Shown: positions 54,682 to 59,920 of the stretch, piece after piece
Layout of the letters: each line of letters opens with the position of its first letter
How positions within the stretch are numbered: position 1 is the stretch's first letter
From: a bacterium
GTDB taxonomy: Bacteria > Cyanobacteriota > Vampirovibrionia > Gastranaerophilales > Gastranaerophilaceae
Assembly (NCBI GenBank): GCA_017470245.1
Contig: JAFUEV010000037.1
Coordinates: 1 to 64,000, forward strand
Length of the DNA: 64,000 nucleotides
Reading direction: 5' to 3'
Position numbers and translations under genes: made by a program
The notes under the pieces: model-generated
What the model saw: the letters and a program-made list of their open reading frames with translations, nothing else
Database searches by the model: none
What the model was told of the DNA's origin: nothing

Positions 54682-54754
54682 GGGGGATTGGCTCAGTTGG
54701 TAGAGCGCCTGCTTTGCACGCAGGATGTCAGGAGTTCGAGTCTCCTATCCTCCA
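54682..54754 (+). tRNA. tRNA-Ala (anticodon UGC)
   Basis: The cloverleaf folds fully. The acceptor stem GGGGGAT pairs with ATCCTCC, the D stem is GCTC/GAGC, and the anticodon stem CCTGC/GCAGG encloses TTTGCAC with TGC at 54715-54717. The T arm holds GTTCGAGTC. A discriminator A ends the body and CCA is not fully encoded in frame after it. It has its own promoter and terminator, so it is a single-gene unit. The Mu-like segment begins downstream of its terminator. Confidence 0.97.
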
Positions 54755-55244: not shown

Positions 55245-57086
55245 ATGAATGATATATATATAAATATAAATAAGGTAGCAGAAGTTAAGGGGTTAAAAAG
55301 TACCCGTTCATTAAGAATGGCAATTAACAAAGGTAAATATAAAGCAAGAACAATCCCAGTTAATGGCGGTTATTCTTATGAAATATTATATTCATCTTTA
55401 GAACCTGAAGTTCAAGAAAAACTTGAAGATGAAGAAATGAGATCTACGGCTCTCGTTCCAATTGTAGATTCAAAACCAACATTTATATCCGAAAGTGCAA
55501 GAATGACATCTTTGGCGAGAGCTGATATCGTTGCCGCATTAGAAAATATAAAGAGTAAATATAAGACTAAAAAAGAGGCAGAATTTGTATTTTTGGATTT
55601 ATACAATTCAGGAATGTTATTACCTCAAGTGTATAAATTCATTGGTAAAATCTCAATCGGAACTCTTCGCCGTTGGGTTAAATCATTTGAAGAAAAAGGA
55701 GCAGACGGATTAGTTCCGCAACGCAGATATTCTTCAATTACTGAATATAACACCATCTTGAATCAGGAAATGAAAGATATATTCTTAAAGTTTCTATTGC
55801 ACCCGAATAAATTTAAGGTTGGAAAGGCAATCACATTAACAAGACATATTTTAGAAAAACGAGGTTATGAAAATATTCCGAGTGTGATTACGTTCAGACG
55901 ATTTGCGGAGCATTATAAAAAATTAAATTATTCAAAATGGATACTAATTAGAGAGGGTGAAAAAGCATACCACGATAAAGTGGAAGCATATATTGAGCGA
56001 GATATTTCCAAATTGGAAGTCGGGGATGTGCTAATAGCAGATGGTCACGTTCTAAACTTCCAAGTAATAAATCCATTTACAGGTAAGCCGGCGAGAGCAA
56101 CTCTTGTCGGCTTTTTAGATTGGAAATCAACCGCACTCGTGGGTTATGAAATTATGATGACTGAAAATACCCAATGTATTGCATCTGCTCTGCGTAATGC
56201 GATTTTAAATCTCGGAGTGATTCCGAAAGTTGTATATCAAGACAACGGTCGAGCTTTCAAAGCAAAGTATTTTCAGAATGTAGACTTTGACGAGGCAGGA
56301 TTTAACGGTGTTTATGCAAATCTCGGAATTAAATCAGTATTCGCAAAGCCATACAACGCAAGAGCCAAAGTTATAGAACGATTCTTTTTAGAATTTCAGG
56401 AAGAGTTTGAAAAAATGATGGTCTCATATATCGGCACATCAATTGAAGATAAGCCGGCATGGATGAAACGAGGCGAGAAACTACACAGGGAAATGCATCA
56501 AAAAATTACAAATAATTATATTCCGACAATTCAGGAAGCAATTAAATATATTGATTGTTGGATAGATTATCACAATTCAAAAACGTGTCCAAACGATAAA
56601 AATCGCACGATCAAAGAGTGTTTAAATGCCGTTCAAAGGCAAGACATTGATAAAAATAAATTAAATTATTTGATGATGAGTACCAAAACAAGGGTCATAA
56701 ATAAACATGGAATCACATTTTTGGGAATGCATTATGTCATTACTATAAGAACCCTCAAAGAATACTGTTATAAAGGCAAGTTCAATTACAAAATTAAAAA
56801 AGTAAAAAAGAAAAATATATTTTATGTCTTTAAATATTCTCTTCCAATAGGAACATTTAGAAAAGATGACATAAATGAAGATCCGAAAAAGAGTCCTGAG
56901 TATTCATCATCCCCTCAATGGGCAACAGCACAAGCAGATAAATATTCGGATATTTTGCGTGAAGTTCTAAATAAAGATTTAAAAGGTAAAAAATTAAAAA
57001 ATTTTATTTCAGATTGGAATTTAATTTATCCTGATCACCAAACATCCTATCAAAGTGTAATGAGGATACCCCGATGGATATGGTGA
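55245..57086 (+). CDS. Mu-like phage transposase (MuA type, DDE)
   Basis: A 613-residue transposase. Residues 5-70 are a MuA-type end-binding winged domain (a V-A-E-V-K-G-L-K-S-T-R-S-L start), then a helix-turn-helix region. The RNaseH-like catalytic core has Asp266 (LIADGH), Asp333 (YQDNGRAF) and Glu378 (KVIERFF). The Asp-Asp spacing of 67 equals that of phage Mu transposase (Asp269, Asp336, Glu392). A beta-barrel and a Lys-rich C-terminus follow. The stop overlaps the start of the MuB-like remnant. It should carry out replicative transposition of the element, but only if both ends and a MuB function exist. Confidence 0.92.
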   Translation: MNDIYININKVAEVKGLKSTRSLRMAINKGKYKARTIPVNGGYSYEILYSSLEPEVQEKLEDEEMRSTALVPIVDSKPTFISESARMTSLARADIVAALENIKSKYKTKKEAEFVFLDLYNSGMLLPQVYKFIGKISIGTLRRWVKSFEEKGADGLVPQRRYSSITEYNTILNQEMKDIFLKFLLHPNKFKVGKAITLTRHILEKRGYENIPSVITFRRFAEHYKKLNYSKWILIREGEKAYHDKVEAYIERDISKLEVGDVLIADGHVLNFQVINPFTGKPARATLVGFLDWKSTALVGYEIMMTENTQCIASALRNAILNLGVIPKVVYQDNGRAFKAKYFQNVDFDEAGFNGVYANLGIKSVFAKPYNARAKVIERFFLEFQEEFEKMMVSYIGTSIEDKPAWMKRGEKLHREMHQKITNNYIPTIQEAIKYIDCWIDYHNSKTCPNDKNRTIKECLNAVQRQDIDKNKLNYLMMSTKTRVINKHGITFLGMHYVITIRTLKEYCYKGKFNYKIKKVKKKNIFYVFKYSLPIGTFRKDDINEDPKKSPEYSSSPQWATAQADKYSDILREVLNKDLKGKKLKNFISDWNLIYPDHQTSYQSVMRIPRWIW

Positions 57087-57514
57087 TTCGCCAAAGTAAA
57101 GAAATGGAAACGTTTGGCAAAAACGATTTAAGTATGTTTATGCCTGAAACAAAAGTAAAAGAAGAGGATTTGTATTTATTTGAAACAGACCGAATTCTCG
57201 AAGAAGAATTGAAAGGAGTTGCTAATGTCTTATTTGAAAATTTGCGAGGATATAACAATCAATACGATCAGCTTTATTCAAGAGTTAAATATCACAAACT
57301 GCTTGATAGATTAGTTTTGTCAGATATAACAAAAATTTTAAATGCGGCAGGACAAGATCCTGAACTCGCAGAAACGTATCTTTTCTATTCCGATGGAAAC
57401 ACGAGAAGATTAGAACATTTGATTACTCACAGTATTAGCGTAGCCAAATTTAATGGACTCGCAAAGGTCGATTCTACTGTGATTAAACAGACTTCAAAAA
57501 TGCTGATGGCATAG
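57074..57514 (+). CDS. C-terminal-only MuB-like protein (ATPase core missing)
   Basis: A 146-residue protein whose second half resembles the end of the MuB/TnsC-type AAA+ ATPases. YDQLYSRVKYHK is like the conserved YAQLFSRV segment, LSDITKILNAAG follows, and DGNTRRLEHLITHSISVAK matches the C-terminal helical lid (GxTRRL). There is no Walker A or B: the first 50 residues are unrelated. It starts in a 13-base overlap with the transposase gene, so the missing part cannot lie upstream. Either an internal deletion left this remnant, or a short accessory form is used. Without the ATPase it could not deliver target DNA as MuB does. Confidence 0.6.
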   Translation: MDMVIRQSKEMETFGKNDLSMFMPETKVKEEDLYLFETDRILEEELKGVANVLFENLRGYNNQYDQLYSRVKYHKLLDRLVLSDITKILNAAGQDPELAETYLFYSDGNTRRLEHLITHSISVAKFNGLAKVDSTVIKQTSKMLMA

Positions 57515-57526
57515 GAGGGATTAAAC

Positions 57527-57703
57527 GTGTTAGTAGATAAATCGACTGGTAAGCCTCCATTCCGACCCGGTGAAACCACTTTTTATGTATTTTTAATCGC
57601 TCTTGCCATCTTTATTTTTGGGGTTCAAGTCGGAATTAAACATGGGCGAACTTTAGAACTTGAGGATTTACGGATCAAATATGGCTACCACTTCACAGAT
57701 TAG
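57527..57703 (+). CDS. Small single-pass membrane protein
   Basis: A 58-codon ORF with a GTG start and a strong ribosome site (AGGAGG, spacing 6). After a polar, Pro-rich N-terminus (residues 1-18) comes one hydrophobic span (about 19-37, VFLIALAIFIFGVQVG), then a charged tail. Its stop overlaps the start of gemA by 23 bases. The operon position, ribosome site and TM design argue that it is real. Function unknown; it may help host-envelope steps of the phage. Confidence 0.6.
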   Translation: MLVDKSTGKPPFRPGETTFYVFLIALAIFIFGVQVGIKHGRTLELEDLRIKYGYHFTD

Positions 57704-58130
57704 AAAAATACATACACTTAAAAGCATACTTGGATTAGAAGATGATTTATATAGAGATATGCTCTATTCATTCGGAGTATGCACTTCAAAGGATTTAACT
57801 TTTACCGAAGCGGCAGTTTTACTTGATATTTTAGAAACAAAAGCCGTAGAGAGAAATCTTTGGAAAAAAGAGCAAAAAAAATATGAAGATATGAAAAATC
57901 GTAGTGGCAAAATGGCTACCCCTCCACAATTAAGAATGATTAAAGGTTTATGGCGAGATATTTGCTATTTCGATAATGACGAATTTGCAACAAAATCACT
58001 ACGGAAATTTCTTAAAGCAAAGTTTAAAGTTGATGATATCAGATTCCTTACTAAAGCCAAAGCTAATAAAGTTATTCAGGCTATTAAAGGAATAAAAAAG
58101 AATTTGAAAAAGAGTGCGGCCGCACTTTAG
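57681..58130 (+). CDS. gemA: GemA (Mu gp16-like, DUF1018) regulatory protein
   Basis: A 149-residue early phage protein. The N-terminal SQIRKIHTLKSILGLEDDLY and the second repeat-like part (TPPQLRMIKGLWRDI) followed by Lys-rich helices match the GemA/gp16 family, which in Mu alters host DNA supercoiling and gene expression. I chose the ATG at 57681; a TTG at 57660 would add seven residues. It sits between the transposition genes and mor, exactly where transposable phages keep it. Confidence 0.85.
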   Translation: MATTSQIRKIHTLKSILGLEDDLYRDMLYSFGVCTSKDLTFTEAAVLLDILETKAVERNLWKKEQKKYEDMKNRSGKMATPPQLRMIKGLWRDICYFDNDEFATKSLRKFLKAKFKVDDIRFLTKAKANKVIQAIKGIKKNLKKSAAAL

Positions 58131-58156: not shown

Positions 58157-58489
58157 ATGCAAACAGAAGAAAAAACAATGGAAATGTCTATGACAGACTC
58201 AATGGAAGAATCTATGGATCCAGAAATGAACGCAACACCTAAAAAGATGGACAACATGCCTGAATGTGCTGTTATCGGTTTAATTAAAAATCAGATGATA
58301 GTGCTTGAGGAAGAATTAAGGGAAGCAAAATTAAGATATGCAGATGTAGCCTTGGAAAAAGATAATTGGAGTGGAAAATACGAAAGAGAACTTGACTGTA
58401 AGGTAATTGAAGGTCAAATGGCAATTCTTTGTAAATTAGAAAAGGATTTTGAATGTATGTTCACCCCATCTTCCCATTCCATGCAATAA
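58157..58489 (+). CDS. Hypothetical phage early protein (110 aa)
   Basis: A 110-residue protein with many Met, Glu and Thr residues in the first 35 (M-E-M-S-M-T-D-S-M) and a helical, acidic remainder (coiled-coil-like LEEELREAKLRYADVALEKDNW). AAGGAG lies 7 bases upstream. It follows gemA by 27 bp and its stop is two bases before the first hammerhead ribozyme, so its mRNA would end in the uncut 5' half of the ribozyme. No family is recognised. Confidence 0.65.
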   Translation: MQTEEKTMEMSMTDSMEESMDPEMNATPKKMDNMPECAVIGLIKNQMIVLEEELREAKLRYADVALEKDNWSGKYERELDCKVIEGQMAILCKLEKDFECMFTPSSHSMQ

Positions 58490-58491
58490 AA

Positions 58492-58552
58492 GGTCGAAAC
58501 GGTCGGCAACAAGAGCTGACCGTCTTAACGTAAGGCGTTAACTGATGAGACC
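58492..58552 (+). ncRNA. Type II hammerhead ribozyme, copy 1
   Basis: All core elements are present in type II order. Stem II 5' half GGUC (58492-58495) leads to GAAA (58496-58499). Stem III follows (58500-58507 with 58515-58522, loop 58508-58514), then U16.1 at 58523 and the cleavage base C17 at 58524. Stem I is UUAACG/CGUUAA (58525-58530, 58536-58541, loop UAAGG). The core CUGAUGA (58542-58548) and stem II 3' half GACC (58549-58552) complete it. Cleavage should occur between 58524 and 58525. Every invariant hammerhead core base (C3 U4 G5 A6 G8 A9, G12 A13 A14, A15.1-U16.1) is satisfied. It lies between two small phage ORFs. Confidence 0.95.
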
Positions 58553-58569
58553 AAATAAAGGATTTTATT

Positions 58570-58878
58570 ATGACAAAAATTGATGAATTTAAAAAACTAC
58601 TTAAAGAAAGATTGGATCAGGCAGATGATGATATTTATTGCACAAAAATTGCAATAGCAGAGTTGTTTATTAAAAATCACAGGCTTCACGCAGGCGAAGG
58701 TATTGAATTGCTTGATTACTGTGATTCAACAAATGATTGGGATGACGTAGTTGATTTAATGATTGGTTATGAATGTGCCAATGCCGTTAAAGAAGAACTT
58801 TCACTTCTTTCTCATTTTATTGAGCGAGGTTTTGATATTAAGGAGGTTAAAAAAGATAAAAAACCGAGCATTAATTAA
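58570..58878 (+). CDS. Hypothetical phage early protein (102 aa) between two ribozymes
   Basis: A 102-residue acidic protein (LKERLDQADDDIYCTK, then LLDYCDSTNDWDDV) of helical character, with no family recognised. AAAGGA lies 9 bases before the ATG. Hammerhead ribozymes sit immediately upstream and downstream, so double cleavage would release this ORF on its own RNA of about 393 nucleotides (58525-58917) with the stem I hairpin of copy 1 at its 5' end. It is encoded directly before mor. Confidence 0.7.
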   Translation: MTKIDEFKKLLKERLDQADDDIYCTKIAIAELFIKNHRLHAGEGIELLDYCDSTNDWDDVVDLMIGYECANAVKEELSLLSHFIERGFDIKEVKKDKKPSIN

Positions 58879-58880
58879 CA

Positions 58881-58945
58881 GGTCGAAACGAGCGGATAAC
58901 GGTGCAATCTGCTCGTCTTGGAGTAATGCTCCAACTGACGAGACC
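58881..58945 (+). ncRNA. Type II hammerhead ribozyme, copy 2
   Basis: The same architecture as copy 1 with different stem sequences. GGUC (58881-58884), GAAA (58885-58888), stem III of 9 bp (58889-58897 with 58907-58915, loop of 9), U16.1 at 58916, C17 at 58917. Stem I is UUGGAG/CUCCAA (58918-58923, 58929-58934, loop UAAUG), followed by the core CUGACGA (58935-58941) and GACC (58942-58945). Stems I and III differ from copy 1 by compensating changes, which is strong evidence of selection on structure. Cleavage is predicted between 58917 and 58918, freeing the mor mRNA with its ribosome site. Confidence 0.95.
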
Positions 58946-58959
58946 ATAAGAGGAGATAT

Positions 58960-59271
58960 ATGCAATACGAGCCATGGATGGATAAAGCCACACCAGACGA
59001 TATGCCAAATGCAGATTTAAAATTCGTTGCCGAAACAGTCGGTATGCGGCAAGCTTTATTGTTTGTATTTCTTTTATCAGGTTACAACGTCTATATACCA
59101 AAGAATGCACTTAGATTAGTAAGAGATAAACACATAATTAATAAGTATGACGGCACAAAATATACAATAAACATACTTGCAAAAGAATGTGATTTAACAA
59201 CAAGACAAATATACAGAATAATTGAAGAACATTTGCATAAATCAAAAGATAAAGATTCTAAAAAAGATTAA
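58960..59271 (+). CDS. mor: Mor-family middle transcription activator
   Basis: A 103-residue transcription factor like phage Mu Mor, which switches on middle genes. The C-terminus is a helix-turn-helix (CDLTTRQIYRIIEEHLHK, residues 80-97), and the middle has the GTKYTINILAKE-type core strand. AGAGGAG precedes the ATG, placed 14 bases after the second ribozyme. In phages the target is the middle promoter of head and tail genes; none is found downstream, so its target is missing from this element or lies elsewhere. Its 3' end overlaps a convergent gene by 14 bases. Confidence 0.8.
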   Translation: MQYEPWMDKATPDDMPNADLKFVAETVGMRQALLFVFLLSGYNVYIPKNALRLVRDKHIINKYDGTKYTINILAKECDLTTRQIYRIIEEHLHKSKDKDSKKD

Positions 59272-59920
59272 CCATCACTTCTTTACTCCGAACCGCATCG
59301 GAGTTTTTCTTTTTTGGGAAAAGCAAAACGCTATAATATAGCGTTGCTTGATATTGATTATTCAATTGGAGTTGCTTGATATATGCACCTTTGAGTCCGA
59401 TTGTAATATTTTGATAATGTTGTGATGCCGGCTTTATTTGATAATCACCCTCGCCCATTTCATCGCATACTTCTGAATATACTTTCCAATAATCATATTG
59501 AATTCCGCCTGTTTTGGTAATGGTCTTTTCCCTTTTTGGTTTTTCTCTTAATTCAGGTTTCAATAGGCATTCAAAGTCCATTTTATCGCCGTTCAAAAAT
59601 GCTTTAAATACAAAAATTCCTAAATCGCCTGTTGAACCCTCATTGATCGTTTTTAGAACATTCATAATTCTCTCTTTTGGATTTGTAACTATCCAAGCGA
59701 AGTAAGGCTTTTGCGGTAGTTCTAAAACGGTCGGATCATTTACAACATCAACGAAAGTGTCGAAGTTTTGAGTTAAATCCGTAAGGGTTACAACAACTTT
59801 TCCGCTCTTTGCTTGGTAATCTGCTATTGTTGAAGTTACCTGAACGGGAGTGTTGTTTTCTAAATACTCTGAAAAATTCTGTTTGCTCTTGAGAGCTTGT
59901 TCTGCTGTGATTGTAGTCAT
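59258..59920 (-). CDS. Unknown 220-aa protein (cargo gene)
   Basis: A 220-residue protein. I chose ATG 59920, which has AAGGAGG 6 bases upstream, over a longer frame starting at 59959. The sequence is soluble and mixed (ALKSKQNFSEYLENN, VVVTLTDLTQNFDTFVDVV, KPYFAWIVTNPKERIMNVLKT). I do not recognise a family. Its last 35 codons run through the mor terminator and a 19-bp palindrome (59325-59343), so the true C-terminus may be shorter in ancestral copies. It is convergent with the phage operon. Confidence 0.55.
   Translation of the reverse strand: MTTITAEQALKSKQNFSEYLENNTPVQVTSTIADYQAKSGKVVVTLTDLTQNFDTFVDVVNDPTVLELPQKPYFAWIVTNPKERIMNVLKTINEGSTGDLGIFVFKAFLNGDKMDFECLLKPELREKPKREKTITKTGGIQYDYWKVYSEVCDEMGEGDYQIKPASQHYQNITIGLKGAYIKQLQLNNQYQATLYYSVLLFPKKKNSDAVRSKEVMVNLF
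59283..59312 (+). terminator. Rho-independent terminator of the early operon
   Basis: A 7-bp stem (ACTCCGA / TCGGAGT) with loop ACCGCA is followed by TTTTTCTTTTTT. It lies 11 bases after the mor stop and inside the 3' end of the convergent gene's frame. Confidence 0.9.

Follow-up and report, generated by a model that had tools for sequence, protein, structure and literature searches.

Two compact type II hammerhead ribozymes flank a small gene in the early operon of a Mu-like prophage remnant of Gastranaerophilales

The window, i.e., the whole stretch of 64,000 nucleotides that was analysed, contains the early genes of a Mu-like prophage, and the genes and elements listed in this paragraph lie on the forward strand. 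A MuA-like transposase of 613 aa (55245-57086; PHROG 310, E 1.4e-89) is followed by a truncated MuB-like gene (57074-57514; PHROG 296 and comparison with the related locus L161), a 58-aa ORF of the early operon taken from the ORF list (57527-57703), gemA (57660-58130; Pfam PF06252, E 5.7e-18) and a 110-aa ORF (58157-58489; cluster c1), whose position is kept in relatives according to the comparison of loci. Further downstream are an ORF of 102 aa (58570-58878) and mor (58960-59271), which encodes a protein of 103 aa of the late/middle transcription activator family (Pfam PF08765, E 5.1e-08; PHROG 836). Directly after mor, a terminator-like hairpin with a T run (59285-59312) likely marks the end of the early operon. 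The gaps on both sides of the 102-aa ORF are occupied by two hammerhead ribozymes, HHR1 (58492-58552) and HHR2 (58881-58945).

The spacing is tight. HHR1 is separated by 2 nt from the stop codon of the 110-aa ORF and by 17 nt from the start codon of the 102-aa ORF, and HHR2 by 2 nt from the stop codon of the latter and by 14 nt from the start codon of mor. Directly 3' of stem II of each ribozyme is a likely ribosome-binding site, AAAGGA (58557-58562) for the 102-aa ORF and AGAGGAGA (58949-58956) for mor. No promoter-like excess was found in the two gaps. The 102-aa ORF, an optional gene in relatives, can be regarded as a genuine gene, since a relative with 62% identity is present in L161 and dN/dS is 0.28/1.09. 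It has no Pfam match and no convincing PHROG match.

The phage itself is a Mu-like remnant, as the MuB-like gene lacks the ATPase half and tail genes are missing, while MuA, gemA and mor are present. Comparison with L161 revealed that the MuB-like gene retains residues 197-292 of the 292-aa protein of its relatives; the missing N-terminal two thirds correspond to a helix-turn-helix and an AAA ATPase domain (Pfam AAA_22 in the full-length relative, without a match in the copy in the window). Beyond mor, a DUF4268-type gene is shortened to 233 aa vs. 284 aa, and the tail genes that follow in that region in the related locus L328 are absent from mor to the end of the contig, where other genes are found instead, including one for a type I restriction-like protein. 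A relative of a tail gene is present on another contig of the genome and belongs perhaps to another prophage. Since the ribozymes are intact, the decay may be recent; as the phage is a remnant, the ribozyme pair may no longer be important to it in this strain. A tRNA gene of 73 nt (54682-54754) is located just 5' of the remnant. The host genome also carries two genes of the RtcB family (G000:C82:62997-64028 and G000:C80:78823-79860). RtcB is an RNA ligase that joins ends of the hammerhead type.

HHR1 and HHR2 share the same plan. Stem II of HHR1 is formed by GGUC and GACC (58492-58495/58549-58552) and encloses, from 5' to 3', the GAAA segment (58496-58499), the stem III hairpin (58499-58523), C17 (58524), the stem I hairpin (58525-58541) and CUGAUGA (58542-58548). 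The corresponding elements of HHR2 are stem II, again GGUC/GACC (58881-58884/58942-58945), the stem III hairpin (58888-58916), C17 (58917), the stem I hairpin (58918-58934) and CUGACGA (58935-58941). Direct reading and pattern search showed that the type II core is complete in both, i.e., CUGANGA, GAA, the A15.1-U16.1 pair and an H17 that is not G, and the cleavage triplet is GUC in either case. Folds and covariation in 50 relatives agree that stems I and III are closed by loops and that stem II is open.

A strict hammerhead pattern matched HHR1 and HHR2 in the window and nothing in 100 dinucleotide shuffles, a looser finder gave no matches in 20 shuffles, and the fold energy of each ribozyme was equalled by just one of 200 shuffles. 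A covariance model (R1) was derived from an alignment, A3, of 50 hammerheads from which the window was excluded. This model recognized HHR1 with 73.2 bits (E 3.9e-25) and HHR2 with 82.0 bits (E 1.7e-28), and no third match was found in the window up to an E value of 10. In the stems of A3, 98.7% of the cells are paired vs. 76.9% in shuffles, and both sides have changed in 184 cells vs. 41.9 in shuffles; as the sequences are related, the comparison with shuffles is not a probability, but a control with slid partners, which preserves relatedness, reduced pairing to 27-43%. Thus, the claim in the earlier note that the stems vary yet stay paired is borne out by many relatives, and its identification of the two elements as type II hammerheads was confirmed by the intact core, the folds and the independent covariance model. 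Judged by sequence and structure, HHR1 and HHR2 are complete ribozymes of this type, with predicted cleavage at 58524/58525 and 58917/58918; these sites had been proposed before and are upheld as predictions from the core and the structure. Self-cleavage would be expected with near certainty in the test tube, and it is very likely also in the cell when the region is transcribed.

The loop of stem III has a feature of its own. The sequence AACNNUGCA is common to most copies (58888-58916 in the window and relatives in A3), with UGC in the loop of 35 of the 45 distinct sequences, on top of a stem that varies (GGUC, GAGC, AGCC, AAGA or GGGA). As it is conserved although it is dispensable for the ribozyme, this loop may have a binding partner. 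One could also suppose that the two elements are inactive fossils or act as DNA, e.g., as a binding site for a repressor, or as a simple hairpin with a stabilizing role that resembles a ribozyme, and both this loop and the decay of the prophage would be in line with that, but the idea is highly improbable, as all core bases are kept and the stems covary in 50 sequences from loci of very different DNA identity, whereas a DNA site would not preserve pairing through changes on both sides.

The earlier note had also named a search with the Rfam model Hammerhead_II, and a covariance score below threshold for both elements as a refutation. This model (RF02276; gathering score 37 bits) did not match HHR1 or HHR2, even at E values up to 10, so that both are below its threshold. 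Read literally, this would be the refutation named in the note, but the model misses compact relatives as well, and the model built from their own class matches both. Among eleven loci tested, RF02276 found 14 hammerheads, all in L004, L028, L078 and L080, where the copies mostly have a stem II of 3 bp and a long loop I, and none of the 19 compact hammerheads in L071, L110, L115, L129, L136, L173 and L204. HHR1 and HHR2 are missed because the consensus of RF02276 represents the pseudoknotted kind. The non-detection is a limit of the model and not a refutation of hammerhead identity.

Measurements over all hits set the two kinds clearly apart. Among the 90 sequences that have a stem II of 3 bp, stem I hairpins are 21-24 nt long, and the longest run of pairing between loop I and the 3' tail has a mean of 5.0 vs. 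3.1 in shuffled tails and reaches at least 4 bp in 96%. In the class with a stem II of at least 4 bp (79 viral and 45 Gastranaerophilales sequences), almost all stem I hairpins measure 17-18 nt and carry a UNANN loop, and the same pairing is near chance (2.7 vs. 2.5 in the viral and 2.3 vs. 2.2 in the Gastranaerophilales sequences); the exceptions with a long hairpin mostly have the pseudoknot. The pairing of 4 or more bp between loop I and the 3' tail, which characterizes the pseudoknotted subclass in the consensus of Perreault and colleagues, is not found in the compact class. HHR1 and HHR2 belong to the compact class: stem II has 4 bp, the stem I hairpin has 17 nt, and there is no pseudoknot. 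The compact form makes up about one third of the viral matches in the sample, although this and other class frequencies are rough, as the inner part of stem II was prescribed by the pattern used to collect the sequences. Since the Rfam type II model overlooks the whole compact form, counts based on Rfam are too low.

Among named genomes, close matches to the pattern are nearly all in bins of gut Candidatus Gastranaerophilales (Melainabacteria), to which the host can thereby be assigned as well. The pattern is present in 37 of 383 genomes of the order of the host, and the covariance model matches 31 genomes in a sample of 386 from the phylum, all of the family or order of the host. Many more hammerheads are found on viral contigs, in arrays of up to eight; one such contig carries a type P5 twister ribozyme (L115:10002-10065, reverse strand) together with three hammerheads of that strand. 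The hammerheads are always located between genes and in sense orientation, and in all 36 loci with two or more of them, the copies share one strand. For 175 viral hammerheads, the median distance is 1 nt from the preceding stop codon to the ribozyme and 23 nt from the ribozyme to the following ATG.

The position upstream of mor is occupied particularly often. A search for Mor found relatives in 73 of 286 genomes, and in 27 of the 30 best mor loci, the window included, a canonical hammerhead is located 12-79 nt 5' of the gene; one further locus among these 30 (L213) has a core variant with an inserted U. More distant Mor genes in the same search are mostly without a hammerhead, hence Mor does not need one, and an Rfam search of the mor loci without a hammerhead did not find a substitute ribozyme. 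Of 53 loci, most retain the order MuB, small ORF, gemA, 110-aa ORF, hammerhead, mor, and 19 also contain a second hammerhead, so that one additional small gene is bracketed. A hammerhead just upstream of mor is present in most Gastranaerophilales prophages with this type of mor. Several variants were observed at this position. The extra U (CUGAUGA-U-GACC) is found in the mor loci L213, L237 and L256, with stems that are intact and differ from each other. Before a distant mor (L280:712-777, reverse strand), stem II is fully swapped to GACC/GGUC, and the gap 5' of mor in L227 contains a plain hairpin, GTGCAGGGAA/TTCCCTGCAC, and no hammerhead.

Two pairs of near-identical loci allow a comparison with and without the extra gene. 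L161, with two ribozymes and the gene, matches L143, with one ribozyme and no gene, on both sides of the difference: identity is 98.4% on the upstream side, where homology extends 10 nt into HHR1, and 97.3% on the downstream side, where it resumes 8 nt before HHR2, so that the two differ by exactly one ribozyme-gene unit joined at the ribozyme; L137 and L138 give the same picture. Since homology breaks at the ribozymes, the extra gene behaves as one unit of ribozyme plus gene. The proposition that the bracketed slot holds unrelated genes was dropped, as the clusters c5 and c9 are perhaps distant relatives (hhalign E 0.0006, probability 29%).

Together, HHR1 and HHR2 are probably self-cleaving punctuation between the cistrons of a Mu-like early transcript. 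The placement between cistrons of the gemA-mor early operon, already proposed in the earlier note together with a division of the transcript into three RNAs upon cutting, is supported by the spacing to the stop and start codons, and each intergenic gap consists essentially of a ribozyme and a ribosome-binding site. Each ribozyme would fold as RNA polymerase passes and cut 3' of C17. The first product would be an RNA whose last cistrons are gemA and the 110-aa ORF and which terminates in the stem III hairpin, bearing a 2',3'-cyclic phosphate; the second, of 393 nt, would carry the 102-aa ORF; and the third would be the mor mRNA, with the stem I hairpin and a 5'-OH at its start. Each piece would then probably have a stability of its own and be translated independently, with hairpins capping both new ends. 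That such processing sets the stoichiometry of the 102-aa protein and Mor, as the earlier note suggested, would be conjecture. Unmasking of the ribosome-binding sites by cleavage was considered but is not favoured, as their predicted accessibility barely changes (from 0.52 to 0.57 and from 0.80 to 0.77). As folding predictions show no such unmasking, a role in RNA stability or uncoupled translation would be likelier than a translation switch. The predicted pairing of stem II in longer context is low (0.04-0.14), which is uninformative because all comparison hammerheads are equally low in the same energy model, which cannot see the core. The slot before mor is filled in dozens of related prophages, and since the ribozyme is present once, twice, as a core variant or not at all in natural loci, these offer ready-made comparisons for the effect of cleavage.

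The ribozymes could instead mark the borders of gene cassettes, where the small gene enters or leaves when one ribozyme copy recombines with another, and RNA cleavage would then be needed only so that inserted pieces spare their neighbors. The locus pairs L161/L143 and L137/L138, each differing by exactly one ribozyme-gene unit, and the extra unit in 19 of 53 loci fit with this explanation. However, a repeat gives rise to homologous recombination by its mere presence, without this having to be the function under selection, the covarying stems and the retained core call for catalysis, and most loci have a single ribozyme without a cassette. As an account of the function, it is rather unlikely.

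A wider proposal combines several of these elements: the compact type II hammerheads would be a distinct, widely overlooked subclass that serves as movable gene punctuation in Gastranaerophilales phages, with each optional gene bringing its own ribozyme and being released as its own RNA, perhaps circularised via a hybrid hammerhead formed by its ends. Taken as a whole, this is speculative and improbable.

The circular RNA can also be considered by itself. The excised RNA of the 102-aa ORF would begin with the 3' half of HHR1 and finish with the 5' half of HHR2, and its two ends could rebuild a hybrid hammerhead, because stem II (GGUC/GACC) is common to HHR1 and HHR2; joining by this ribozyme or by RtcB, for which the host genome has two genes, would give a stable circular mRNA. 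Against this stands that the compatibility of stem II between neighbors in viral arrays is at chance in the compact class (0.33 vs. 0.36 by chance, p 0.73) with a slight excess in the other class (0.80 vs. 0.75, p 0.03), in sets where stem II was partly fixed by the search pattern, and that no circular or spliced product was found in the cases of Perreault and colleagues (PMC3088659). Such a circle is quite improbable.

Punctuation of the early transcript, the preferred reading, can be set beside systems that are already known. Type II hammerheads were described earlier as clustered in prophages around single genes, and tandem prophage hammerheads were found to cleave during transcription, one set also in E. 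coli (Perreault et al., 2011; PMC3088659). The arrangement of clustered hammerheads flanking single prophage genes has, therefore, been known since 2011 (PMC3088659). Hammerhead and twister ribozymes have been stated to be most strongly linked to Mu-like phage genes for an unknown reason (PMC10085705), and their role in prokaryotes has been called an open question (PMC6155905). The compact subclass, the conservation of the slot before mor throughout the order and the unit of ribozyme plus gene appear to be new, although the compact form may be present in older alignments.

HHR1 and HHR2 share with the clusters of Perreault and colleagues (PMC3088659; RF02276) the closed stems I and III, the open stem II and the core. 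As in those clusters (PMC3088659), where several copies flank single genes of prophage operons on the gene strand, two copies in the window flank a single gene of a phage operon on the same strand. They depart from the consensus of that study, which has a pseudoknot between loop I and the 3' tail, by a stem II of 4 bp, a stem I hairpin of 17 nt that carries a UNANN loop, and the absence of a pseudoknot above chance. With the Mu-linked hammerheads and twisters (PMC10085705), they have the Mu-like early genes gemA and mor as neighbors in common; beyond that report, the exact slot before mor, its conservation across the order and the optional bracketed gene are mapped here. As in retrozymes and viroid-like circular RNAs, a defined RNA is, by prediction, released by two hammerheads. 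However, the hammerheads of those RNAs are of type I or III, are copies of a single repeat and occur in eukaryotes or replicons, whereas the pair described here consists of two diverged type II copies in the operon of a DNA phage.
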